Shown here piece after piece: positions 13,746-55,589 of a DNA stretch of 64,000 nucleotides; the stretch's first letter is position 1; each line of letters starts with the position of its first letter. The position numbers and the translations under genes were made by a program. The stretch covers positions 62,001 through 126,000 of the forward strand of contig NZ_AGFF01000024.1 of the NCBI RefSeq assembly GCF_000226215.1, written 5' to 3'. The notes below the pieces were generated by a model that had not been told where the DNA came from, did no database searches, and saw only the letters and a program-made list of their open reading frames with translations. The DNA comes from Dietzia alimentaria 72. Lineage in GTDB: Bacteria > Actinomycetota > Actinomycetes > Mycobacteriales > Mycobacteriaceae.

Positions 13746-14838
13746 TCAACGTAGAAGTGTCCAGACCTGCTCGAGAGCATCGGTCGTGCCGGGCACGTCA
13801 ACAGACTGCGGGACGAACACTGCTGCGGAGCGACCGGTGCGTCTGTTCACGTAGCCGATAGTCCCAAGGCCTCCCGCCCATCCCACTACCTCGTGTGAAC
13901 GGACCTCGACCTGGTAGCCGTAACCATTACCTGGCTCGACGAAGCCGGCGGAGAGAGCGACCTGTTCGGACGTCAGGTGGTCGGTGCACATCTGTTGAGC
14001 GGTGTCAGCGGAGAGGACCGGGCTTCCCACGACCAGGACATCCAGGAAACGCAGGTAGCCCTCGATCGTCGAGGTCAAGCCGCACGCTAGCGAGGCAAAG
14101 GTAGGCGGCGCGCTGAATCTCGTCACGGTATCAAGGGCGCGAATCCCGCCGTTCGGATCGGCCGCATAAGAAATCGGCAGTCGCCCCGGGGCGGCGGTGA
14201 AGCCGATGTCCTGGAGCCCGAGAGGGTCGCAAACGTGCTCCTCTAAGAGTTCGGACAGGGAACGACCGGTGGCCCGCGCCAGCAGCACTCCGAGGACATC
14301 ACTGCAGTTGTGGTAATTCCACCCACGGCCGGGTTGGTTCGACAGCGGAAGTGACCCCAGTCGCCCCATATAGTCGTCTGCGAACATCTGTGGGGCGAAC
14401 GGGCCCGGCGCTATCTGCTGCGCGGCCATCGCCTCGGCGAGCGGAGTTCCCTGTCCGGCCCATCCGAAACCCGCGGTCATCGTCAGTAGATGCCGCAAGG
14501 TGATGGCGCGTTCGGCGGGGCCGAACTGGTCAAGTGGACCGTCCGGGCGGGTGAGGACCCGTGGCTCGGACAATTCTGGGAGATATTCCGCGACTGGATC
14601 GTCGAGCCTGAGGATCCCGAGTTCCACCATCAGCAGTGTGAGCACCCCACCGATCGGCTTACTGTTGGAAGACAGGGGAATATCGCGTCGGCGAGTAACG
14701 GTGGCCCCTCAAGCGCGGACGCACCCCCGTCACGATCCGGGTCCTGCCGTTCTCGTGGATCCCAGCCGCGAAACCGACCAATCTCCCGGTGGCGACAATC
14801 TGGTCCAGTGCGTCTACCACCTTGTCTACGGCGTCCAT
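13746..14838 (-). pseudogene. Beta-lactamase-family (class C-like) serine hydrolase, two frameshifts
   Basis: The intact gene would encode about 364 aa of the class C beta-lactamase/penicillin-binding family. The ATG at 14838 has an excellent ribosome site (GGAGGAG). The N-terminus reads MDAVDKVVDALDQIVATGRL, then the frame is lost at a run of five C (plus strand 14724-14728). A second frame carries the middle and is lost again at four G (14675-14678). The third frame then gives the catalytic SNSK (S-x-x-K), the YHN motif in the middle and an intact C-terminus. Adding one base at each run restores one open frame of exactly 365 codons. The downstream frame alone lacks an in-frame start before SNSK. 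Either the gene is recently inactivated or there are two homopolymer sequencing errors. Confidence 0.8.
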
Positions 14839-15076
14839 GTCTCCTCCGGTCAGGCTCCGATTTCCAGCTTCTCAGCTGACCGCCCTTAGTAGGACCGCAA
14901 TCGGTCGTTCTCGGGAACACGCATACGCCGTCGACTTGCACGGTCTACGGGCTACCGGATCGCAGGCTGGGAGACAGTCTCGGATCGGGACCATTCTGAG
15001 GACGTGTCCGCCACCGACCACTCGGTTCGCGTCCGTTGGACACCCGTGCGGCGTCTTACAGTACGCCTCAAGAGGT

Positions 15077-31989: not shown

Positions 31990-34900
31990 TCAGTTGCCGT
32001 CGCCGAGGGCCTGGTACGCGTCGACCGCGGACTGCAGGTCCTCGAGTGCCTTTCCGAGTTGGCCCAGATCCCCGGACTGGGCAGACCGAACCGCGTTCAG
32101 CGCAGAATTGATGTCGTCAATGGCTGCACCACGCTCCGCCTCGCTCCTGCCGCCTCCGCCGGTTACGGGCGTGGACGGCCGGGGGGAACTCCCCTGGGAA
32201 CTCGGTCGATCCACCCCCTGCTTGGCCTTGGTCTCGGCCTCGCCGCTTTCGTCGATGCGGACGAGGTCGGGATCAGTCTCGATGCCCACCTGTTGCAGCG
32301 CCTCGTACAGGGTCGGGGCGTAGCCGACAGCGCGGTCGTAGCTCACCATGACCCGCAGCAGCCTGGGGTACGCCGACTCGTTGTCCTTTCGCTGGGTATA
32401 GATGGGCTCCACGTAAAGCACCGAATCATCGGCCAATGGCAGGGCGAGCAGGTTGCCCTCGGTGATCTCCGCTGTTTCACCCCAGAGTCGGCGGTCCTCG
32501 GCGATCGCCGGGGAGGCAATCATGACGTCCTGCGCCTGGTTCGGCCCCTGTGAGAGCGGCTCTGTCGGCCGCTGGACACGGACCGTGATGTCGCCGTAGG
32601 AATCCGGGTCCGAGCTCGCCGACATGTGCGCCGACAGGAACTCCCGCTCGTACCCGCGGAACGCAGAGATGAGCTGGAACGTCGGGGTGTCCGACTCCGG
32701 ATCAGTCGGGTCCGAAGCGATCACGTAGTAGGGCGGTTGGCTGGGGCCGTCCACCGGAGCACGGTTCGCAGTCTGCGGTCCTGCGGGACCCCCGGCCGGC
32801 CCACCAGCCGGTCCACCCGCGGGCGGAGCCTGCCGGGTCTGGATCGGCGAGGTGACGGTGGGGTCGGACGGCACCGACCAGAACGCGTCGTTGGTGAAGA
32901 ACTGGCCAGGATCGTCGACCTGGTACTTGGCAAGCAACTCACGCTGCACCTTGAACAAGTCCTCCGGGTACCGCAGGTGCTCCTCGAGCTCTTCCGAGAT
33001 CGCGTCACGCGGCTGCACGATGCCTGGCAGGGCCTTCATCCACGTCTGCAACACAGGGTCCGACTCGTCGAAGGCGTAGAGGTCCACTGTGCCGTCGTAG
33101 GCATCCACGGTCGCCTTGACGGAGTTACGGATGTACGAGACCTCCTCATCCACCTGCACTCGGCCGCCGAGCTCGTCCGTCGAGTCCGCGGTGGTGGCCT
33201 CCAGAGAGCTGAGCTCGGCGTACGGGTAGGTCTTCAGCGTGGTGTAGCCGTCCACGATCCATTTGATACGCCCGTCGATCACGGCCGGGTACGTGGTGGT
33301 GTCCGTGGTCAGCCACGGCGCTACCTTCTGCACGCGGTCACGCGGGTCGCGGTCGTAGAGGATCTTGGAGTCGTCACCGATCAATCCCGAGAGCAGGATG
33401 TTGCGCTCGGCAAATTTGAGCGCATAGGCAGTGCGGTTGACCCACCCACCGATAGGCACACCTCCATCGCCCGCGTACGTGTACTGGGTCGTGTCGGTGT
33501 CGTACTCGCGCGGCCCGTCGCCGTTCTCCCCGACGATCGCGTAGTCAGGGTCCGACTGTGCGATGAGCTCACCGAAGTACACGCGCGGCTCGGTAACCGG
33601 AATCATCATCTCCTGGTCGGTCTTGATCGCCTCTAGATCCGACACCTGGAAATTAGGCAGACCGCCACGGTCCGAGCCCGCGTCGTCGGCGATCTCGTTG
33701 ACCCGGTTGGCCGGTGCCGCCACGAAACCGTTTCCGTGCGTGTAGACGGTGTGACGGTTGATCCAGTCACGCTGATTGGCCTGCAATGACTGCGGGTTGA
33801 GTTCGCGGGCAGCGACCAGGAAGTCCTGCATCTCGCCGTCGATCGTGTAGCGGTCGAGGCTCAGTGTCTCGGGGAACCCGTAGAAGTTGCGCAGCTGTTG
33901 CAGCTGCGTGAACGTGGGCGACAGGACGTTGGGGTCCAGGATCCGGACGTTCGACAACGTTGTGGTGTCGGTCGCGGCTTCCTTGGGTGTAGGGCTGGCG
34001 GCGCCCCAGTTGTCGATATAGGTCACCCTGTCGTCGCCGATGTCGTACGCAGCACGCGTCGCCTCGATATTGCGGGCGATGTACTCGCGCTCTTTCTCCG
34101 CACGGTTGGGCTTGACCGAGAACTGCTCCACGGCGAGTGGCCACGCCGAGCCCACCACAAGGGCCGAGAACAGCAGCAGCACGGTGGCCAGGGCGGGAAT
34201 CCGCAGGTCCTTGATGACGATCGCGGAGAAGAACGCCACCGCGCACACCAGGGCCACCGAGAACATGAAAATCTTGGCGGGGATGACCGCATTGACATCG
34301 GTGTAGCTAGCGCCCGTGAACGTGGCGTTCTCCCGAAAGAGGAGCTCGTATCGATCCAGCCAGTAGGCGGCGGCCTTGGCCAGCACGAACAGCCCGGCGA
34401 GGCTGACCAGCTGAATCCTTGCGGCGCGCGTCAGCGCACCCTCCCGCGCACCGGGGCGCAGCCCGCCGAACAGGTAGTGGGTGACCAGGTTGGCAATGAA
34501 CGCCAGCACAATCGCCACCATCGTCCAGGTGACGACGGAGCGCCACAGTGGCAGGTCGAACGCGTAGAAGGAGATATCCAGACCGAACTGCGGATCTGAT
34601 TGTCCGAACGGAGTGGAGTTGAAGAAGGCCAGGACCTGCCGCCAGCCGGTCTGGGCGATCGATCCGGCGAGGATACCCAGCACGATAGGTATCCAGATCA
34701 CGGTTCGGATCGGAGAGGAACCCATCGCGGCCCGGTAACGGGCGAGAGCGTCCGATACCCCCGGTTGAGTCAGGAAGACCGGTCGATAGCGGTAGGCGAG
34801 CAGGACACCGGCGGCTACCGCCAGTCCTACAAGGACCGCTACCAAGAAGAAGAGGCCGAGGCGCGTCAACACCTCCGTCCGGAACACGCTGGATGCATCG

Positions 34901-35058
34901 ACGCTTCGGAACCACAACCAGTCCGTGTAGGCCGAATTCAGCCTCGGCACGACCTGGATGAGAACGATGAGGATGACGACGACGGCGGCGACGGCACGAC
35001 CGCGACGCGAGATCGCGATCGGCGAACCGGGGGGATTGCCGGGTGGGCGGACGGACAC
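31990..35058 (-). CDS. UPF0182 family large membrane protein
   Basis: This 1022-aa protein matches the UPF0182 family of actinobacteria and some cyanobacteria. The N-terminal ~300 residues hold about seven TM segments, starting at AVAAVVVILIVLIQVV. A long extracytoplasmic domain follows. Near residue 770 is a Gly-Pro-Ala repeat (GGPAGGPAGGPAGP), and the C-terminus is a short coiled-coil-like helix (ALEDLQSAVDAYQALG). The function is unknown. The GTG at 35058 follows AGGAG 8 nt upstream. It lies next to the PDZ-Lon protease gene, as in M. tuberculosis, which suggests a shared envelope role. Confidence 0.88.
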   Translation of the reverse strand: MSVRPPGNPPGSPIAISRRGRAVAAVVVILIVLIQVVPRLNSAYTDWLWFRSVDASSVFRTEVLTRLGLFFLVAVLVGLAVAAGVLLAYRYRPVFLTQPGVSDALARYRAAMGSSPIRTVIWIPIVLGILAGSIAQTGWRQVLAFFNSTPFGQSDPQFGLDISFYAFDLPLWRSVVTWTMVAIVLAFIANLVTHYLFGGLRPGAREGALTRAARIQLVSLAGLFVLAKAAAYWLDRYELLFRENATFTGASYTDVNAVIPAKIFMFSVALVCAVAFFSAIVIKDLRIPALATVLLLFSALVVGSAWPLAVEQFSVKPNRAEKEREYIARNIEATRAAYDIGDDRVTYIDNWGAASPTPKEAATDTTTLSNVRILDPNVLSPTFTQLQQLRNFYGFPETLSLDRYTIDGEMQDFLVAARELNPQSLQANQRDWINRHTVYTHGNGFVAAPANRVNEIADDAGSDRGGLPNFQVSDLEAIKTDQEMMIPVTEPRVYFGELIAQSDPDYAIVGENGDGPREYDTDTTQYTYAGDGGVPIGGWVNRTAYALKFAERNILLSGLIGDDSKILYDRDPRDRVQKVAPWLTTDTTTYPAVIDGRIKWIVDGYTTLKTYPYAELSSLEATTADSTDELGGRVQVDEEVSYIRNSVKATVDAYDGTVDLYAFDESDPVLQTWMKALPGIVQPRDAISEELEEHLRYPEDLFKVQRELLAKYQVDDPGQFFTNDAFWSVPSDPTVTSPIQTRQAPPAGGPAGGPAGGPAGPQTANRAPVDGPSQPPYYVIASDPTDPESDTPTFQLISAFRGYEREFLSAHMSASSDPDSYGDITVRVQRPTEPLSQGPNQAQDVMIASPAIAEDRRLWGETAEITEGNLLALPLADDSVLYVEPIYTQRKDNESAYPRLLRVMVSYDRAVGYAPTLYEALQQVGIETDPDLVRIDESGEAETKAKQGVDRPSSQGSSPRPSTPVTGGGGRSEAERGAAIDDINSALNAVRSAQSGDLGQLGKALEDLQSAVDAYQALGDGN

Positions 35059-35124: not shown

Positions 35125-36186
35125 TCAGCCGCAGGTCGGTGGCTCGCCCCCTGAAGCGACCGTTTCCAGGGACTCCAGCGCGTCGTCCAGTGTGGAGACC
35201 TCGATGAGCCTGAGACCCTCCGGAGGATCCTGCACAGCCTCCGCACAGTTCGCCGACGGGACCAGAAACTCCGCGGCCCCCACCTCTCCGGCAGCCCGTA
35301 TCTTGTGACGAATCCCACCGATGGGGCCGACCGTACCGTCCGCGCTGATCGTGCCGGAACCGGCCACGTCCGCCCCTCCCGTCACCTCGCCCGGCGAGAG
35401 TGTGTCGACGATCGCGATGGCAAGGACGAGTCCGGCGGAGGGACCACCCACATCGGGGTCGACGTGAATTTCAACGTCGGTGCCGTCCGCTGGGGTGTCG
35501 CCGACCAGGATGCCCAGTCGACCTTGCTCAGGATCGCCGTCCGGTCCCGCGGAGCGCAACGTCGCGGTCGCCGTCTCCTCGCGGCCGTCCCGGGTGAATC
35601 CGATCCGGACCTCGTCGCCGGGCCGATGCTCGCCCACCTGCTCTACGACCCCGGTGGAATCAGCCACCGCCGTACCGTCAATGGAGTTCAGGATGTCGCC
35701 GACGCGCAGCAGACCCGCCGCGGCCCCGTCGCGGTCCACACCTTCAACGCGGGCGTGCATGGGAATTCCCAGATGGCGGTAGGCCGCGGCTTCCGCCGAG
35801 TTCTCCGACCCCACCATCTGGGCGGCATTGGATTCCTGCACCTCGTCGCGGGAGCGATCCGGTGGGAACACCTGGTCTCGGGGGATCACCACCTGCGCTG
35901 GATCCAGCCAGAACCGCATGGCGTCGAGCAAGGTCAACCGATCGCGGACGGCCACCGTGGTCATCCGCAGCGAACCCGTGGTCTCGCCGGCTTCCCTGCC
36001 GGTCACTTCGATCACTGGAACGATCTCCGGGATCCCCTCCTCCGACTCGACCTCCACCTCGCCGAGGGTGTCGTACGTCGGCCCGGGGCCCATCGCCACC
36101 AGCGGGACGGTGGCCGCTGTCGTCAGGACGAGCAGCAGCACGGCCGGGACCAATGCGGCGATGAGGGTGACCAGGCGACGACTCAC
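35125..36186 (-). CDS. Membrane-anchored PDZ-Lon (YlbL-type) serine protease
   Basis: This 353-aa protein has one N-terminal TM segment (about residues 7-31), a PDZ domain at about 135-215 (ARVEGVDRDGAAAGLLRVGDILNSIDG) and a C-terminal Lon-type protease domain. The Ser-Lys dyad is visible as Ser250 in GGPSAGL and Lys295 in GIRHKIRAAG. The catalytic domain should face outside the cell. YlbL-type proteases cleave cell-division or envelope substrates in other Gram-positives. Substrates here are unknown. The GTG at 36186 has no Shine-Dalgarno sequence, but TACCCT (minus strand, 36194-36199) ends 7 nt before it. It is divergent from the DUF2342 metalloprotease gene 79 bp away. Confidence 0.9.
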   Translation of the reverse strand: MSRRLVTLIAALVPAVLLLVLTTAATVPLVAMGPGPTYDTLGEVEVESEEGIPEIVPVIEVTGREAGETTGSLRMTTVAVRDRLTLLDAMRFWLDPAQVVIPRDQVFPPDRSRDEVQESNAAQMVGSENSAEAAAYRHLGIPMHARVEGVDRDGAAAGLLRVGDILNSIDGTAVADSTGVVEQVGEHRPGDEVRIGFTRDGREETATATLRSAGPDGDPEQGRLGILVGDTPADGTDVEIHVDPDVGGPSAGLVLAIAIVDTLSPGEVTGGADVAGSGTISADGTVGPIGGIRHKIRAAGEVGAAEFLVPSANCAEAVQDPPEGLRLIEVSTLDDALESLETVASGGEPPTCG

Positions 36187-36265
36187 GCAGGCAAGGGTAG
36201 TCGCCGCACCCGAGGCACGAGATCACGGCCGGACCCCACACCCCGGCACGCTGTACCGTTGTGGC

Positions 36266-37648
36266 ATGAACCAGCCCTTCGGTTTCTCCGCATCCGACGA
36301 CGACGGGCGCGATGACGACCGGGACCGTGGCCAGGGCGGCCCGGGTGGTCCCGGCGGCTTCGGCGGCGCCGGCGGCTTCGACCCCTCGCAGTTCGGCGAG
36401 ATGCTCTCCCAGTTCGGCCAGATGATCGGATCGATGGGGTCCGCCATGTCCGGCCCGGGCGCCTCGGGTCCCGTCAATTATCAGTTGGCCAAGACCATCG
36501 CACTGCGGTCACTCGGCCGGACCCCAGTGATCACCGACTCTTCGCGCACCGCCGCCGTCGAGTCCGTTCGGCTCGCCGAACTCTGGCTTGACGAGACCAC
36601 CGTGTTCCCCAGTGGCGTCCACCGGACCGAGGTCTGGACGCCCCAGCAGTGGGTCGAGCAATCGCTGCCCACCTGGGAGAAGCTCTGCAACCCGGTGGCC
36701 GAGCAGATGAACTCGGCCACGATGGACGCCATGCCCGACGAGGCCCGTCAGCTCGCCGGGCCACTACTGGGCATGCTCGGCCAGATGGGCGGCATGGGTT
36801 TTGGCCTGCAGCTCGGGCAGGGCCTCGCCAAACTCGCACCAGCCGTCTTGTTCTCCTCCGAGGTCGGACTGCCGTTCGGCGACGACGGCGTGGCCGCCCT
36901 GTCCCCGGCCGCGGTCGACGAATTCGCCGACGAGCTGGAGCTACCCCGTCAGGAGGTGGTGGTGTTCCTCGCTGCACGCGAGGCCGCTCACCTACGACTC
37001 TTCGCTGGCGCTCCGTGGCTGCGGGCACGGTTCCTGGCCACCGTCGACGAGTACGCACGCGGCATTCGCGTGGACACGTCGGGACTGGACGAGTTCGCCG
37101 TTGGGATCGATCCGTCGGTGCTGCAGGATCCCGCCAAACTCCAGGAGATGCTCTCCGGCGGAGCCGGCGCGATCGGCCCCAAGGTCACCAACGTCAACGA
37201 GGCCGCACTCGGCCGCCTCGAAACCCTGCTGGCACTGGTCGAGGGCTGGGTCGACTGCGTGGTCACCGCTGCCGTCGGGGACCGACTTCCCAGCGCCGAC
37301 AAACTCCGCGAGACGTGGCTCCGACGCCGCGCCGCAGGTGGTGCCGCCGAGCAGGCCTTCGCATCACTGGTCGGACTCGAGCTACGTCCGCGCCTCGCCC
37401 GCGAAGCCTCCGAGCTCTGGCGCCGTGTCGGCGAAGCCGTGGGTGCAGAGGGCCGCGACGGCCTGTGGCAGCACCCGGACCTCCTCCCCGTGGGAGAGGA
37501 CCTCGAGAACCCCGCAGCCGTGATCGACCGACTGCTGGACGAATCGACCGGCGACTCCAGCGGCGTTGACGAGATCGAGAAGTTCCTCCGCGAATCCGGA
37601 GGAGACAGTGACACAGGCGGATCCGGGACCCCGAGCAACGACGCCTGA
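36266..37648 (+). CDS. Zinc-dependent metalloprotease, DUF2342 family
   Basis: This 460-aa protein starts with a Gly/Asp-rich tail (residues 1-40) and continues as a mostly helical domain typical of DUF2342, often labelled zinc-dependent metalloprotease or coenzyme F420 biosynthesis-associated. The putative metal site is REAAHLRLF, a degenerate HExxH in which the first His is Arg. Activity has not been shown by the sequence. The ATG at 36266 lacks a ribosome site and has TACCGT (36254-36259) six bases before it, so a leaderless transcript is likely. It is convergent with the YgjP-type gene, 29 bp apart. Confidence 0.8.
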   Translation: MNQPFGFSASDDDGRDDDRDRGQGGPGGPGGFGGAGGFDPSQFGEMLSQFGQMIGSMGSAMSGPGASGPVNYQLAKTIALRSLGRTPVITDSSRTAAVESVRLAELWLDETTVFPSGVHRTEVWTPQQWVEQSLPTWEKLCNPVAEQMNSATMDAMPDEARQLAGPLLGMLGQMGGMGFGLQLGQGLAKLAPAVLFSSEVGLPFGDDGVAALSPAAVDEFADELELPRQEVVVFLAAREAAHLRLFAGAPWLRARFLATVDEYARGIRVDTSGLDEFAVGIDPSVLQDPAKLQEMLSGGAGAIGPKVTNVNEAALGRLETLLALVEGWVDCVVTAAVGDRLPSADKLRETWLRRRAAGGAAEQAFASLVGLELRPRLAREASELWRRVGEAVGAEGRDGLWQHPDLLPVGEDLENPAAVIDRLLDESTGDSSGVDEIEKFLRESGGDSDTGGSGTPSNDA

Positions 37649-37677
37649 TCCGCTATACCCCGCGACGGCGGGCCCGA

Positions 37678-38346
37678 CTATTGCTGAGCGGGCTCGTCGT
37701 CGTTGTCGTCGTAACCCGGAACCAGGTCCCCGAGCCCCTCGCCACCACCAGTCTGCTCACCGGCACCATTTCGCAGCACGCGTGAGTACGCCTCCAGGTA
37801 GCCCACTGCGCGCTCGGTCCGCGGATAGCGGCGCACAACGTCCCAGAACTCGGGGGGATGCCCGCCCGGTACCATCAGGTGCGCCAACTCGTGCACCAGC
37901 ACGTAGTTCAGCACGTAGGCAGGAACCTCCTGCAGCGTCTCGCTGATCCGGATTTCCCCCGAGCCGGGCGAGCACGAGGCCCAACGGGTGGTCATAGCTG
38001 GCACCCACCGCACTGACGACGGTCGGGGCCGACCCTCCAACCACCGCCTCGACAACTGGTCGGCCAAACGCATCAGGTCGTCGTCGGAGGCCCCCCGCTT
38101 CGTCCGACGACCCGAGCGCGCCAGACGGGTGAGCATGTCGCCGATGAGGCGGCGCTCCTCGGCCCGCGGCAGCCCCGCCGGCATGAGCACCACTACGGTC
38201 TCCCCCTCCAGACGCGCGGACACTGTGCGCTTACGGCGTCGGGAACGGCGCACCTCGATCCGTGGATCGTCAGGACTCGAGGGCAGGTCGGAGACGGTAT
38301 CGGGCCCCGATCCGGCAGCATCGGAAGGTCGCGGAGAAGACGGCAC
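37678..38346 (-). CDS. YgjP/SprT-like zinc metallopeptidase (DUF45)
   Basis: The 222-aa protein has the gluzincin site HELAH at 152-156 with a further His163 in GGHPPEFW, the pattern of YgjP/DUF45 metal-dependent hydrolases. An earlier segment, MTTRWASCSPGSGEIRISETLQEVP, is also typical. It has no signal peptide, so it should act in the cytoplasm. The GTG at 38346 is chosen because TACGGT ends 7 nt upstream. A GTG at 38355 is the alternative. It is divergent from the leader-binding protein gene, and two DnaA-like boxes lie between them. Confidence 0.82.
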   Translation of the reverse strand: MPSSPRPSDAAGSGPDTVSDLPSSPDDPRIEVRRSRRRKRTVSARLEGETVVVLMPAGLPRAEERRLIGDMLTRLARSGRRTKRGASDDDLMRLADQLSRRWLEGRPRPSSVRWVPAMTTRWASCSPGSGEIRISETLQEVPAYVLNYVLVHELAHLMVPGGHPPEFWDVVRRYPRTERAVGYLEAYSRVLRNGAGEQTGGGEGLGDLVPGYDDNDDEPAQQ

Positions 38347-38379
38347 GTCGACCACCGTAGACGACCGCGACGACAGTGG

Positions 38380-38419
38380 TTTTCCACAGGACCCGCGCGG
38401 CTCGACCGCCTGTGGATAA
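38380..38419. promoter_or_regulatory. Inverted pair of DnaA-box-like sequences
   Basis: TTTTCCACAGG (38380-38390) and CCTGTGGATAA (38409-38419) are inverted copies 18 bp apart. The second is a perfect match to the R1-type box TTATCCACA, and the first differs from it by one base. They sit between two divergent genes. Regulation or titration by DnaA is inferred. Confidence 0.55.
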
Positions 38420-38460
38420 CCCGCATTACGGGGCAGATCCAGTACATTCCGCATGTCAAT

Positions 38461-39438
38461 ATGAGCATCGTGAATCCAGTCACCACGACGCCCGCCGTCC
38501 CACAACCCCGTATCGCCGTCGCCGCGCAGGCACCGTCGGTTCGCGCGGCGCTTCGCCCGGGCACCGTGGTGGTGGTCCGCGACCGCCGATCGGTGCAGGT
38601 GGGACTTGCACCGGACCGCGCCGTAGTGGTTACTGCTCCAGCAGCGTGCGGTCCGCATCGTCTGGCCGCGCTTCTCAGCGGACTCGAAGGGGGCGCCGTC
38701 CTCGACCGGGCCGCAGCGCGCGCTGGCGTCAGCACCGGTGAATTGGCGCAGGTGGCGCGGATCCTCATCCGACTGGCCGACCTCGGCCACATTGAACTCG
38801 ACACACCGGGCTCCGACATCGCCGACACCGCACCGACGCCGAGTCTTGACCCCGTACGCCGCGTCTATGTCCTCGGGTCCGGACAGATTTCCGATGTGCT
38901 CCGCGGACCGCTCACCGTCAACGGGTGCAGGGTCACCACCGGACCCCACCGCGGCCTGACCCTCGATCCGGACCGCCCACCCTGGCACCGGAATGGCCCC
39001 GCCAACGACCTGGTGATCCTCGCCGGAACGGTGGCGGTCGACCCTGTGGTCACCGCAGCGTTAACACGTACCAGACAGGCCCACCTCCACGTGCACTCTC
39101 GCGACGGCCGCGTAGTGGTGGGCCCCACCGTGGTCCCGGGAGTCACGCCATGCCTTCGCTGCACTGACCTCTTCCGCGCCAGACGTGATCCTCGGTGGCC
39201 GTTCGTCGCCGCTCAACTCATCGACCGCGCACCAGACGCCGGCGTCCCCGCCCTCACCGCGGGTGCCGCCCTGGTGCTCGCCGAAATCGCGGCTACCCGC
39301 GTCCACGGGGGCACTCTCCAGACGATCGGCGCCACCGTCGAAATCAATCCGGCCGAGGGTCTGTGGCGCCGGCTCGAATGGCCGGCTGTTCCCGATTGCA
39401 ATTGCGGGGCCGCGGCAAAACGCCGACCTCTGTCATGA
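38461..39438 (+). CDS. TOMM-type leader-peptide-binding / cyclodehydratase N-terminal-like protein
   Basis: The 325-aa protein resembles the E1-like/leader-binding component of thiazole/oxazole-modified microcin (TOMM) cyclodehydratases. Residues about 35-115 look like a winged-helix recognition element. Residues 230-255 carry the family signature CLRC-TDLFRARRDPRWPFVAAQL. The cysteines (231, 234, 313, 315) could bind zinc. No YcaO ATPase, precursor peptide or dehydrogenase gene is near. I recall its M. tuberculosis counterpart (Rv3196) as conserved with unknown function. The ATG at 38461 lacks a ribosome site. The stop overlaps the ABC1 kinase start by four bases, so the two are coupled. Confidence 0.75.
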   Translation: MSIVNPVTTTPAVPQPRIAVAAQAPSVRAALRPGTVVVVRDRRSVQVGLAPDRAVVVTAPAACGPHRLAALLSGLEGGAVLDRAAARAGVSTGELAQVARILIRLADLGHIELDTPGSDIADTAPTPSLDPVRRVYVLGSGQISDVLRGPLTVNGCRVTTGPHRGLTLDPDRPPWHRNGPANDLVILAGTVAVDPVVTAALTRTRQAHLHVHSRDGRVVVGPTVVPGVTPCLRCTDLFRARRDPRWPFVAAQLIDRAPDAGVPALTAGAALVLAEIAATRVHGGTLQTIGATVEINPAEGLWRRLEWPAVPDCNCGAAAKRRPLS

Positions 39439-40763
39439 TTGGTGGCGTGTCCGATCTCCCCCGCACCTCTTCCAGCCGCGCCGCACGCCTCGCGGGACTC
39501 CCACTGGGCATTGCCGGCCGCGCCGCTGGGTCGCTCGGGCGTCGCGCACTCGGCCGCGGGGAGGGCGACCTAACGGAAGAACTCGCCGACCAGGCCGCGG
39601 AGCAGGTGTTCGCCGTCCTCGGCGAACTCAAAGGCGGCGCGATGAAGGTGGGCCAGGCGCTCAGCGTGTTCGAGGCCGGCATGCCCGACAAGTACGCCGA
39701 GCCGTTTCGTGAAGCCCTCACCAAGTTGCAGTCCGAGGCCCCTCCCCTGCCGCCGGCCGACGTCGAGAAAGTCCTCGATGCCCAACTCGGCCTGCGTTGG
39801 CGGGAACGCTTCGCCGACTTTGACAGCAATGCGGCCGCCGCCGCGTCGATCGGTCAGGTCCACCGTGCGGTCTGGTCGGACGGACGGGAGGTCGCCGTCA
39901 AGGTGCAGTACCCGGGCGCGGACGAGGCCCTACGCTCCGACCTGCGGCAACTCCGACGGCTCGCACCGCTCTTCAAGCCTCTGAGCCCCGGCACCAACGT
40001 CAAGGGCGTGATCGACGAACTTTACGAGAGTGCGGTCGGAGAACTCGACTACAGAGCTGAGGCCGACACCCAACGCGTCTTCGCTGCCGCGTATCGCGAC
40101 GACCCGCTGATCCGGGTGCCGGGGGTGCTCGCGTCCTCCCCCAAGGTGCTCGTCACTGAATGGGCCGACGGCCGCGCTCTGTCCAAGATCTCGACCGGCG
40201 GCACGCAGGATGAACGCAACCTGGCCGGCGAACTGCTCACCGAATTCCAGTTCAGTTCCCCGATCCGCGCTCGGATGATGCACGGGGACCCGCACCCCGG
40301 AAACTTCCTGCTGACCGACGATGGGCGGATGGTCGTCCTCGACTTCGGTGCGTCTGTCCAGCTCCCTAACGGCATCCCCGAGGTGTTGACCTCGATGATG
40401 CGGCTGGCACTGGCGGGAAGAGCCGACGAGTTGCTGGCTGTGATGACGCGCGCCGGATATGTGGGCCGCAGTGGAATGACAAGCGCCGATGCGATGGCAT
40501 TCCTTGGGCCGTTCATCGAGCCGATGCGCGAGCCGGTCTTCCACTTCAGCCGCGCCTGGATGCAGGAAATCGTGACCGTCTACGGGGACGTGTCGAGCCG
40601 GGAGTTCCGGACTTCGCGCTCGTTCACGCTCCCGCGGGAGTATGCCCTCATTCATCGTGTGCTGTCGGCTTCGGTCGGAATGCTCTGCCAGCTACAGTCT
40701 TCGGCGCCGTACCGGGGAATCGTCCACAAGTGGATCCCGGAGATATTCGACGAGCAGGACTAA
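39435..40763 (+). CDS. ABC1/UbiB-family atypical kinase
   Basis: The 442-aa protein has the ABC1 family hallmarks: KVGQ at 71-74, the Ala-rich loop AAAASIGQVH near 135-143 in place of a glycine loop, Lys156 in EVAVKVQYP, HGDPHPGN, and the metal-binding DFG in VLDFGAS. In bacteria such proteins support quinone synthesis or lipid homeostasis by ATPase activity. Actinobacteria use menaquinone, and the role there is unknown. The start ATG at 39435 overlaps the preceding stop (ATGA). The end is 13 bp from the convergent uvrD2 end, with no visible terminator. Confidence 0.88.
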   Translation: MIGGVSDLPRTSSSRAARLAGLPLGIAGRAAGSLGRRALGRGEGDLTEELADQAAEQVFAVLGELKGGAMKVGQALSVFEAGMPDKYAEPFREALTKLQSEAPPLPPADVEKVLDAQLGLRWRERFADFDSNAAAAASIGQVHRAVWSDGREVAVKVQYPGADEALRSDLRQLRRLAPLFKPLSPGTNVKGVIDELYESAVGELDYRAEADTQRVFAAAYRDDPLIRVPGVLASSPKVLVTEWADGRALSKISTGGTQDERNLAGELLTEFQFSSPIRARMMHGDPHPGNFLLTDDGRMVVLDFGASVQLPNGIPEVLTSMMRLALAGRADELLAVMTRAGYVGRSGMTSADAMAFLGPFIEPMREPVFHFSRAWMQEIVTVYGDVSSREFRTSRSFTLPREYALIHRVLSASVGMLCQLQSSAPYRGIVHKWIPEIFDEQD

Positions 40764-40776
40764 CCAAGCCCAGCGC

Positions 40777-42957
40777 TCAGCTCGTGCGCACCAGCCTCAA
40801 CACGTCGTCTCCGTACTCGTCCAACTTGTGTGCACCGATTCCGCCGATCCGACTGAGCGCTCTGGTGTCGGTGGGTCGCTCGCGTGCGATCTGGGCGAGC
40901 GTGTCGTTGGTGAACACCGTGTACGCGGGTTTCCCGATCCGTTCCGACGTCTCCTTGCGCCAGTCACGTAGCCGTTCGAACAGGCCCGTGTCGACTTCTA
41001 TAGAACACTCAGGGCACAGACCGAGGGCGCGATGCATGGGCCCGGCCAGCTTTTCACCGCACCCGCGACAGTGACCTTTGTCGGTCTGGTCGCGCGTGAC
41101 GCGAGGACTCGCCGGTACCTGCGCCGGCCTGACGGGGTCGAGGAACCGGCTCGGTCGGCGGGTCGCACGTCCACCGGCCCGACGACTACGACTCCACGTG
41201 AGCGATAAGTGTTCACGGGCGCGTGTGATGCCCACGTACAACAGGCGTCGTTCCTCCTCGATGGCGTCGGGGCCGGAGTTGATGGCGTGACTGATGGGCA
41301 GGCTGCCCTCGTGCACTCCGACGAGGAAAACAGCGTCCCACTCGAGTCCCTTGGCAGCGTGGAACGACGCGAGCGTGACACCACGTTCGTCCGGAGCGTG
41401 GCGTGCCGCGGCTCGCGCTCGCAGCCCGGCGACCACGGGTAGAAGGCCGGGGGTGGTCTCAGTGGTGGCGATCTCTTCCGCCAGCCCGACGAGAGCGGTC
41501 AGCGAGTCCCAACTCTCCCTCGCCTGCGTGCCGGACGGTTCTGCGGCGGTCAATCCCAGTGGTTCGAGCGTCTGACGGATGACGCTCACCGCGTCCGTCG
41601 GATCGGTCAGCGCGGCGTGTGCCTGCGTCTGCGCCTCGTCAGACCCGTCGACCAGGCGATCGATCGCCGACATCGCGCGGCGTACAACTGACCTCTCGAA
41701 GAAGCCCTCGCCACCCTTGAGTCGATACCCGATCCCCACCTCGTCTAGTGCGGACTCGATGCGTTCGGATTGCGCGTTGATCCGATAGAGGACGGCCACC
41801 TCGGACGGGTCGAGACCCCCGTGGACCAGGTCGGCGATCGCCGCAGCCACGGCCTCTGCCTCCGCGTCCTCGTCCGGGTGCTCGGTGAGCACCGGCTCGG
41901 GGCCCGGCGCTCTCATCCCCTTGAGCGTGAGGCCGGCGCCGCGGAACTTCCCGACTCCACCCCCGATGACGGCATTGGCCAGCTCAACCACCTGCGGGGT
42001 CGAGCGATAGTCGGACTCCAGGCGTACAACGGTGGCCTCCGGATACCTGTCGGCAAATCCGAGGAGAAAGTCCGGTTCGGCGCCTGCGAACGAGTAGATG
42101 GTCTGATTGACGTCCCCCACCACGGTGAGGTCGTCGCGGTTCCCCAACCATGCGGACAGGAGTCGCTGTTGGGCCGGGGTGACGTCCTGAAACTCGTCGA
42201 CGACGAAGCAGCGGTAGCGGTCCCTGAACTCCTCCGCGATGGCCGGGACCTCCTCCACGAGGTCCGCCATGTGCCCCAGCAGGTCATCGAAGTCGAGCAT
42301 CCGGACCGGGCCGGAGACCTTGAGATCCTCGTATGCACGGAACGCGCGTGCGACGTCGGGCCCCGGTACCGGCAGGTCCCGCCCGAGCGCAATCGCCTTC
42401 TCGACGTAGGTGTCCGGGGTGAGCAGACTCGACTTGGCCCAACCGATCTCTGACAACACGTCTCGGATCGTCTCAGTGGACGGGTCCAACCCGACTCGTC
42501 GGACGGCTTGCGCGACAGCCCGGAACTGCCCGTCGAGAAGCTGCCATGGCTCCTCGCCGTACACACGGGGCCAAAAGTAGGACAGGTTGCGCAACGCCGC
42601 GGAGTGGAAGGTCCGTGCCTGGACGGGTCCGGTTCCTGCGTCCGCGACGCCGAGGCTCGCGAGGCGCATACGGAGCTCTCCGGCCGCGCGGGCCGTGAAG
42701 GTCACCGCGAGGACCTGGTCCCCGCGAACGTGACCTGTGTTCACGAGGTGCGCGATCCGCCTGGTGATCGTCCTAGTTTTTCCGGTGCCGGCTCCGGCGA
42801 GAATACAGACGGGGCCCCGCGGGGCCAGCACGGCGCGACGTTGCTGCGGATCCAGCCCCGTGAGCGCAGAGTCGCTAGTTGCTCGCTTGCCGCCGTGCCC
42901 GTCGACGAACCGGCCGCTCTCTACGCCTTCCTGCCCACCACGCCGAATGTCAGTCAC
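40777..42957 (-). CDS. uvrD2: UvrD2 helicase (SF1A) with HRDC and tetracysteine motif
   Basis: UvrD2 is a 3'-to-5' DNA helicase. In its 726 aa the Walker A GAGTGKT is at 55-61. The DEFQD box sits in CFVVDEFQDV and motif VI is VGITRAREHLSL. The C-terminal part has four Cys, CRGC...CPEC, followed by an HRDC-like domain, the layout known for mycobacterial UvrD2. The GTG at 42957 has no Shine-Dalgarno sequence. CACGAT ends 6 nt upstream, so it may be leaderless. It is divergent from mrx1. In M. tuberculosis whiB7 lies between the ABC1 gene and uvrD2, but here it is absent. Confidence 0.94.
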   Translation of the reverse strand: MTDIRRGGQEGVESGRFVDGHGGKRATSDSALTGLDPQQRRAVLAPRGPVCILAGAGTGKTRTITRRIAHLVNTGHVRGDQVLAVTFTARAAGELRMRLASLGVADAGTGPVQARTFHSAALRNLSYFWPRVYGEEPWQLLDGQFRAVAQAVRRVGLDPSTETIRDVLSEIGWAKSSLLTPDTYVEKAIALGRDLPVPGPDVARAFRAYEDLKVSGPVRMLDFDDLLGHMADLVEEVPAIAEEFRDRYRCFVVDEFQDVTPAQQRLLSAWLGNRDDLTVVGDVNQTIYSFAGAEPDFLLGFADRYPEATVVRLESDYRSTPQVVELANAVIGGGVGKFRGAGLTLKGMRAPGPEPVLTEHPDEDAEAEAVAAAIADLVHGGLDPSEVAVLYRINAQSERIESALDEVGIGYRLKGGEGFFERSVVRRAMSAIDRLVDGSDEAQTQAHAALTDPTDAVSVIRQTLEPLGLTAAEPSGTQARESWDSLTALVGLAEEIATTETTPGLLPVVAGLRARAAARHAPDERGVTLASFHAAKGLEWDAVFLVGVHEGSLPISHAINSGPDAIEEERRLLYVGITRAREHLSLTWSRSRRAGGRATRRPSRFLDPVRPAQVPASPRVTRDQTDKGHCRGCGEKLAGPMHRALGLCPECSIEVDTGLFERLRDWRKETSERIGKPAYTVFTNDTLAQIARERPTDTRALSRIGGIGAHKLDEYGDDVLRLVRTS

Positions 42958-54365: not shown

Positions 54366-55589
54366 TCAATACCCCGGCAGGGACGGATCGACATCACGGG
54401 TCCACGCTTCGATCCCGCCCTCCAGCGAGCGCACACCGGCGAGCCCCGCCGCGGACATCGTCTCCACCGCGCGGGCCGAACGCACCCCGGACTTGCAGTA
54501 GACGACCAGGGGGCCTCGTGCCGCTGCGCGGCCCAGAACACCCGTCGGGTCGGCGGCGTCGTCCGCGACCGAATCCAACGGCACCCACACCGAGGGTTCG
54601 ATCGACGCGATCGACCGCTCGCCGGCGCCGCGGACGTCCACCAGCACCGGCACCACGGAAGGACCTGCCATCTCCAACTCCGCAGCCAGGACCGTCGCGG
54701 GGACGGTCGGCACATCGGTCGCCTCCGCCCCCGGGACATCGCACGAGACGTCGTCGGCCCCGTCCGGCAGGTCGGTGACGGGCACCCTCGAGGGATCGGG
54801 ACGGATCGATACCGTCCGATTGGTGGACTCGAGCAAGTCCATCAGCACCAGTCTGCCGAGCAGAGGTCGACCGGCCCCGGTGATCAACTTGACCGCCTCC
54901 ATGGCCATCATCGAGCCGACCGTGCCGCATAATGCACCGACCACGCCCGCTTCGGCACAGCTCGGGACAGAGCCGGCCGGCGGCGGCGCCGGGTACAGAT
55001 CACGCAGGCCGACCGGCTCGACCGGAGCCGGCGGCCGCGACCAGAACACGGCTAGCTGTGCCCGGGAGCGGTCGATGGTGCCCCAGATCAGCGGAATCCC
55101 CGCGATCTCGCAGGCGTCGGAGACCAGGTAGCGGGTGGCGAAGTTGTCGCTACCGTCCACCACCAGGTGATGCCCCTCGAGCAAAGACATGATGTTCAGC
55201 GCATCGAGGCGGCAATGGAGCGCGTCGACCCTGACCCCGGGCGCCAACCCGGCCAACCTGTCGCGGGCCGAGTCCACTTTCGGTCTGCCCACCGCCTCGA
55301 CGGAGTGGATCACCTGCCGGTGGAGATTGCCGAGGTCGACGTCGTCGTCGTCGATCACCGTGATCCGTCCGACCCCCGCGGCGGCGAGATACATCAGGAC
55401 CGGTGCACCCAGGCCTCCCGCACCCACCACGAACACTGACGCGCCGCGCAGGCGGCGCTGCCCCTCGTCGCCGATCGCGCCCAACAACAGGTGTCGCGAG
55501 TAGGTGGCCCGCTCGCGCGCGGTCAGCTCCGGGACCGGATCCACCAGCGGTGGTAATCCCCGATCTGCCTGGCCGTCCACGACACTCAC
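54366..55589 (-). CDS. moeZ: Sulfur-carrier adenylyltransferase/sulfurtransferase MoeZ (MoeB-rhodanese)
   Basis: This 407-aa fusion has an E1-like adenylyltransferase (nucleotide loop GAGGLG at 56-61, DDDDVDLGNLHRQ, active Cys in SVPSCAEAG) and a C-terminal rhodanese domain with the catalytic loop VYCKSGVRSA. It activates and sulfurates ThiS/MoaD-like carrier proteins for molybdopterin, thiamine, or CysO-dependent cysteine synthesis. The GTG at 55589 overlaps the DUF3152 stop (GTGA). The CxxC zinc pairs of E. coli MoeB are not obvious. It is in the same place as in M. tuberculosis (moeZ/moeB1). Confidence 0.9.
   Translation of the reverse strand: MSVVDGQADRGLPPLVDPVPELTARERATYSRHLLLGAIGDEGQRRLRGASVFVVGAGGLGAPVLMYLAAAGVGRITVIDDDDVDLGNLHRQVIHSVEAVGRPKVDSARDRLAGLAPGVRVDALHCRLDALNIMSLLEGHHLVVDGSDNFATRYLVSDACEIAGIPLIWGTIDRSRAQLAVFWSRPPAPVEPVGLRDLYPAPPPAGSVPSCAEAGVVGALCGTVGSMMAMEAVKLITGAGRPLLGRLVLMDLLESTNRTVSIRPDPSRVPVTDLPDGADDVSCDVPGAEATDVPTVPATVLAAELEMAGPSVVPVLVDVRGAGERSIASIEPSVWVPLDSVADDAADPTGVLGRAAARGPLVVYCKSGVRSARAVETMSAAGLAGVRSLEGGIEAWTRDVDPSLPGY

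Follow-up and report, generated by a model that had tools for sequence, protein, structure and literature searches.

RiPP (ribosomally synthesised and post-translationally modified peptide) recognition elements (RREs) have, to our knowledge, been described almost exclusively from gene clusters for cofactors and peptide natural products. The described proteins closest to the one discussed here are the cyclodehydratase C domain of thiazole/oxazole-modified microcin (TOMM) systems (TIGR03882; the N-terminal part of TruD), the Ocin-ThiF-like TOMM F protein (PbtF; TIGR03693) and the microcin C7 synthetase MccB, which uses ATP to activate its peptide. Here, a stand-alone protein of similar build, termed F, is described from the gene at 38461-39438 of a 64,000-nucleotide stretch of Dietzia alimentaria 72 (contig NZ_AGFF01000024.1, positions 62,001 to 126,000; the window), where it overlaps a gene for an ABC1-type atypical kinase comparable to MABP-1 (Rv3197, MSMEG_1954). 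According to PMC6208485 and PMC8696161, MABP-1 has ATPase activity and a role in inducible macrolide resistance, a kinase activity was not identified, and transmembrane co-operating partners are still sought (PMC8696161). As a prediction, the existence of F as a widespread RRE-like/pseudo-E1 protein not tied to RiPP clusters has good support. Our preferred reading of its role, held tentatively and at slightly less than even confidence, is a chromosomally encoded non-catalytic adaptor, composed of two parts as RiPP leader-binding proteins are, which would bring a client to, or regulate, the ABC1 protein where one is present.

F shares with the TOMM cyclodehydratase C domain an RRE-like and an E1-like fold as well as similarity to TIGR03882, but it stands alone without YcaO, scores below the family cut-off and is a syntenic chromosomal gene rather than a cluster gene. 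Its likeness to PbtF lies in the stand-alone RRE joined to a ThiF-like fold, with an N-domain match to 8t19. In contrast to PbtF, TIGR03693, the family named in PMC7470986, is not among the NCBIfam matches of the window F, and there is no thiopeptide or heterocycloanthracin (HCA) cluster. TOMM F proteins outside such clusters amount to only two cases in one survey (PMC4603692), which would be blind to the present F because it started from YcaO genes. MccB resembles F in its N-terminal winged helix and ThiF fold, whereas in F the nucleotide-site Arg and Lys are missing, as is a portion of the lobe. The ABC1 neighbour is like MABP-1 in scoring 533 bits against NF050082, but this lies under the exception cut-off of 800. 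No functional study of the F protein was found among the open-access PubMed Central (PMC) papers listed, where Rv3196 appears only in a single-nucleotide polymorphism table; Rv3196 is unmentioned in the accessible text of the MABP-1 paper PMC6208485, and that of PMC8696161 proposes no F-like partner for MABP-1.

Architecture and distribution of F

The features of F and its overlapping neighbour are as follows.

38461-39438, + strand: F, a stand-alone RRE-like plus probable pseudo-E1 (ThiF-fold) protein of 325 residues (open reading frame (ORF), TIGR03882 similarity, AlphaFold2 model, Foldseek)
38530-38814, + strand: N-terminal RRE-like winged helix of F, residues 24-118
38848-39435, + strand: degenerate E1/ThiF-like domain of F with shortened nucleotide lobe, residues 130-325 (alignments including the window's MoeZ)
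39151-39162, + strand: CxxC half of the F Cys4 site (C231, C234)
39397-39405, + strand: CxC half of the F Cys4 site (C313, C315)
39435-39438, + strand: ATGA shared by the F stop and the kinase start (sequence)
39435-40763, + strand: ABC1/UbiB-type atypical kinase, MABP-1-like ATPase (PF03109, 194 bits; NF050082, 533 bits)

The AlphaFold2 model of F (predicted local distance difference test (pLDDT) 83, predicted template modelling score (pTM) 0.60) joins an RRE-like winged helix to an E1/ThiF-like fold. The antiparallel strands and three helices of an RRE winged helix are present, and the winged-helix recognition element anticipated by the initial annotation is borne out in the model. Its best structural matches are TruD, MccB and McbBCD (Foldseek/VIA), and the entries in the structure list that cover both domains are RiPP enzymes of the TruD type and MccB. 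Taken by itself the N-domain matches 8t19 best and is also similar to non-RRE winged helices; the strand 3/helix 3 positions of F are conserved. By sequence, F matches nothing in Pfam at E<=0.05 and nothing credible in the PDB (best E 0.076). TIGR03882, the TOMM leader-binding family, is matched at E<=0.01 by 22/22 aligned F members, and the window protein scores 31.6 bits, under the curated cut-off of 36.9. Of the TOMM-type leader-binding identity first assigned to F, the similarity therefore stands and the membership does not.

The second domain is matched by Pfam ThiF at E<=0.1 in 12 of 22 F members, and the F profile can be aligned with the MoeZ encoded in the window (54366-55589), from which the nucleotide-site residues (ribose Asp, Arg of NLxRQ and Lys) were read. 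In this remote alignment, where the catalytic DN column is not alignable, all 12 full-length F relatives lack the NLxRQ Arg and the Lys, and 11 of the 12 lack the ribose Asp, which L006 has. The segment after the glycine motif spans only 9-37 residues in 23 of 88 F copies, the window's included, and at least 50 in the other 65. These short-lobe copies fall into families f1 (9), f21 (4), f22 (3), f20 (2), f100 (2) and, with one each, f4, f14 and f104, the f104 locus containing unreadable bases. The missing Arg and Lys and the shortened lobe segment of the window protein do not fit an active E1/ThiF adenylyltransferase, and F is probably a pseudo-E1. The four cysteines are retained nearly throughout (C231 in 88, C234 in 87, C313 in 87 and C315 in 84 of 88 copies), the C234 and C313 misses belonging to a single copy cut by a contig end and C315 being missing also in L086, L087 and L127. 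The Cys4 is presumably a zinc site.

For the counts of spread, we take the class to be Actinomycetes and the order to be Mycobacteriales, names inferred from named matches. F is matched in 184 of 200 order genomes (E<=1e-3) and 208 of 246 class genomes (E<=1e-12). Phylum-wide, 42 of 246 genomes match at E<=1e-6, 23 of them within the class; the 19 matches from outside cover only part of the E1 core (E 2.8e-8 to 9.5e-7) and are taken for MoeB/ThiF. Follow-up of 36 genomes with no listed match (all 16 from the order and 20 of 38 from the class) recovered the neighbouring Zincin_2 gene in 34, and 28 loci from these genomes comprise 7 with a diverged F and 21 lacking F, 19 of which extend to UvrD2. 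F is a widespread ordinary chromosomal gene of the class. A search of plasmids with F matched two records, none at 80 percent coverage. NZ_LR134451.1, a 416 kb Tsukamurella "plasmid", matches at 166327-166776 with 39.5 percent identity over half the query and may be a chromosome piece. In a further locus, L187, from a record under the title Rhodococcus rhodnii NRRL B-16535, F is full-length and 46 percent identical to an Amycolatopsis F; it differs from the short F found in the family that includes the window and, we believe, Rhodococcus. A misnamed genome or a transfer would account for it.

Overlap with the ABC1 gene and the proposed role of F

The ABC1 neighbour carries the marks of the UbiB/ABC1 family, with KxGQ in 83/83 proteins at the locus and the Ala-rich loop in at least 78/83 (six commonest forms). 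In the window, the F stop and the ABC1 ATG share the four bases 39435-39438, as the initial annotation had observed, and in many lineages translation of the two genes appears to be coupled: exactly this overlap recurs in 22 of 72 readable loci from 16 families. Any overlap is seen in 32 of 72, a distance of at most 30 nt in 50 and a larger one in 22, with the ABC1 start set to whichever in-frame start codon is closest to the F stop, a choice that biases these figures to short distances. Because overlap or close spacing recurs, the junction argues for shared translation of F and ABC1, and the ABC1/MABP-1-like ATPase is the best-supported specific link of F. Weighing against this, ABC1 is missing from 15 of 79 F loci and is kept in 11 of 19 purposely picked F-less loci, and the two are not an obligate pair. 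Where present, the ABC1 ATPase is the most likely partner of F, an assignment we consider possible but doubtful.

In the adaptor model, the RRE-like winged helix is predicted to take up a peptide as an extra beta strand, while the degenerate E1 fold would be held by the Cys4, presumably zinc, site. F would thereby bind the tail or leader of a cellular client. When the kinase gene is present, F and ABC1 would be made together, and F may either bring its client to the ABC1/MABP-1-type ATPase or regulate it.

An alternative, somewhat unlikely in our judgement, is that F is a relic or a structural or metal-binding E1-fold protein with no peptide role, its winged helix binding nucleic acid or another protein. 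A pseudo-E1 with a nearly invariant Cys4 would suit such a function, as would the resemblance of the N-domain to non-RRE winged helices and the proximity of UvrD2 and, in relatives, WhiB7. However, the structural matches spanning both domains are RiPP enzymes, and the conserved strand 3/helix 3 positions also speak against it.

F might instead be a genuine RiPP leader-binding protein, with its cyclodehydratase and precursor encoded at other sites of the genome. Its TruD-, PbtF- and McbBCD-like architecture, its TIGR03882 similarity and the occurrence of YcaO somewhere in 79 of 184 F-bearing order genomes are in keeping with this, but other observations make it improbable. The lack of a visible YcaO at the locus extends to the whole Dietzia genome (99.99 percent complete), which has none over the cut-off (best PF02624 score 11.8 bits against 25.7), and 26 of 30 genomes of its family likewise lack YcaO, 4 having it. 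A distant YcaO, sought genome by genome along the line first suggested, does not track F: 79 of the 184 order genomes with F have it, as do 5 of the 16 without, which makes 84 of 200 in all. Among the matches listed and judged by eye, a same-contig pair of F and YcaO within 100 kb is found only in G144, at about 28 kb. A RiPP cluster at the F locus is rejected because the own genome lacks YcaO over the cut-off and because the presence of YcaO does not follow that of F. Short ORFs within 6 kb of F were also compared across 81 loci (families in at least 4 loci, best 25 families), with antisense shadows set aside by eye and real genes judged by the author. The conserved ORFs judged real among the families listed are WhiB7, DUF5679, a zinc-ribbon protein and a small membrane protein; no leader-core-like ORF was found among them, although a poorly conserved precursor could escape.

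Conservation of the neighbourhood

The surrounding genes, all of the families named in the initial annotation being found at the places it gave (ORF calls and family searches), are the following.

31990-35058, - strand: UPF0182 membrane protein, flank (PF03699, 900 bits)
35125-36186, - strand: PDZ-Lon (S16, SepM-like) membrane protease, neighbour (PF05362, PF13180; NF041438 below cut-off)
36266-37648, + strand: Zincin_2/DUF2342 (TIGR03624) protein, probable pseudo-peptidase, neighbour (PF10103, 386 bits)
37678 to about 38370, start uncertain, - strand: YgjP-like metallopeptidase with HELAH, neighbour (PF01863, 60 bits)
40777-42957, - strand: UvrD2-type helicase, flank and control neighbour (PF00580, PF00570)

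This gene order is found again, not by chance, in 80 F loci chosen from listed matches in 40 families, one to eight per family, and no break-up of the neighbourhood was seen outside the order. Retention is 67 for UPF0182, 73 for PDZ-Lon, 77 for Zincin_2, 57 for YgjP, 68 for ABC1, 72 for UvrD2, 56 for Mrx1 and 51 for NudC, some absences reflecting contig ends. The side of each neighbour is constant in every locus and its orientation in all but a few. The Mycobacterium tuberculosis gene order cited in the initial annotation is matched only in part: the eight loci compared of the window's own family, which include no M. tuberculosis, all carry a WhiB7-type gene and in none of the eight was YgjP found, unlike the window.

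Among the proteases, the catalytic-column Ser of PDZ-Lon is kept in 101/101 and the HExxH of YgjP in 84/84. The window DUF2342 protein has REAAH in place of the zincin HExxH; by alignment columns, Arg replaces the first His in 105 of 106 Zincin_2/DUF2342 proteins, and 36 of 106 have lost the last His. The metalloprotease-like character initially given to DUF2342 is therefore not upheld, and from its motif the protein at the locus is a probable pseudo-enzyme. With this loss of HExxH, the three supposed proteases become two and a probable pseudo-enzyme.

These data bear on the proposal that the block forms one peptide-handling system, in which F would recognise a tag and pass clients to PDZ-Lon, YgjP and DUF2342 under kinase control. 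The deep conservation of gene order across 40 families and the retained PDZ-Lon serine and YgjP HExxH are compatible with it, but we regard it as highly improbable. The 21 F-less loci, picked on purpose so that their counts are not frequencies, retain Zincin_2 in 21, PDZ-Lon and UPF0182 in 20 each, YgjP and UvrD2 in 19 each, NudC in 14, ABC1 in 11 and Mrx1 in 10. The flanking UvrD2 control is as well conserved in F loci as the proteases, DUF2342 lacks HExxH, and none of the eight own-family loci yielded YgjP, which is encoded on the strand opposite to F. A six-gene module is thus rejected as unsupported, and the block is better described as a conserved chromosome stretch, because the helicase, the redoxin and NudC share much of its conservation. 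A single co-directional operon of six genes is likewise rejected, as UPF0182 (67/67), PDZ-Lon (73/73) and YgjP (56/57) are transcribed opposite to F in the loci having each gene. We take the proteases nearby for syntenic background and not for obligatory partners of F. A scan of 37600-41000 found no promoter or terminator. Fisher tests on the 98 of 109 loci spanning Zincin_2 to UvrD2, a chosen sample uncorrected for phylogeny, gave p values of 0.066 for F/ABC1, 0.066 in the opposite sense for F/YgjP, 0.48 for F/WhiB, 0.57 for ABC1/YgjP, 0.006 for ABC1/WhiB and 0.016 for YgjP/WhiB.

In 83 of 98 loci the interval between Zincin_2 and UvrD2 holds a gene for a WhiB protein whose tail is AT-hook-like. 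In the window, no WhiB7-type gene lies between ABC1 and UvrD2 (40763-40777), and none of the genome's five WhiB proteins, two of them on the window's contig, has the RGRP AT-hook. In the open-access literature MSMEG_1953 is whiB7 and MAB_3509c is the whiB7 upstream ORF. A zinc-ribbon small protein with a conserved IE-x2-L...WW-like tail is encoded between ABC1 and WhiB7 (e.g. L056), in most cases antiparallel to F; 34 of 88 F loci have it, as does 1 of 21 F-less loci. One copy matched nothing in Pfam over the cut-off, and phylogeny may explain its distribution. A small membrane-protein ORF stands on the opposite strand about 4.7 kb upstream of F in 16 loci (e.g. L046:6133-6351).

DUF5679 (PF18930), a two-knuckle small zinc protein (e.g. 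L043:8771-9001), is present at 71 loci. That it is the substrate or partner of F is the least probable of the explanations considered: it accompanies F in 58 of 88 loci, generally in the same orientation and some hundreds of bases upstream, but it is kept in 13 of 21 F-less loci, which shows no dependency and rejects a dedicated substrate. None of the 9 loci from the window's family has it, and a search of the own genome, made without a positive control, did not find it. An unannotated phage record from faecal samples, MT835831.1, encodes at 14729-14875 a DUF5679 protein 71 percent identical to an actinobacterial one.

Implications

Annotation is affected at two genes of the locus. For genes such as F, the NCBIfam name "TOMM precursor leader peptide-binding protein" is no proof of RiPP biosynthesis, and the metallopeptidase name is doubtful for DUF2342 proteins at the F locus. 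If F is indeed a widespread RRE-type protein of the chromosome with no natural-product cluster, the RRE peptide-clamp fold would serve basic cell biology, and F would be a natural partner candidate for the solved but poorly explained MABP-1/UbiB-like ATPase. More broadly, and as an unlikely extension, F may belong to a housekeeping tag or tail recognition system of Actinomycetes that employs the build of RiPP leader-binding proteins away from natural-product chemistry. In it an RRE/pseudo-E1 protein would capture a client peptide and hand it to a translationally coupled UbiB-type ATPase, the reported macrolide role of MABP-1 being a side view of this function.

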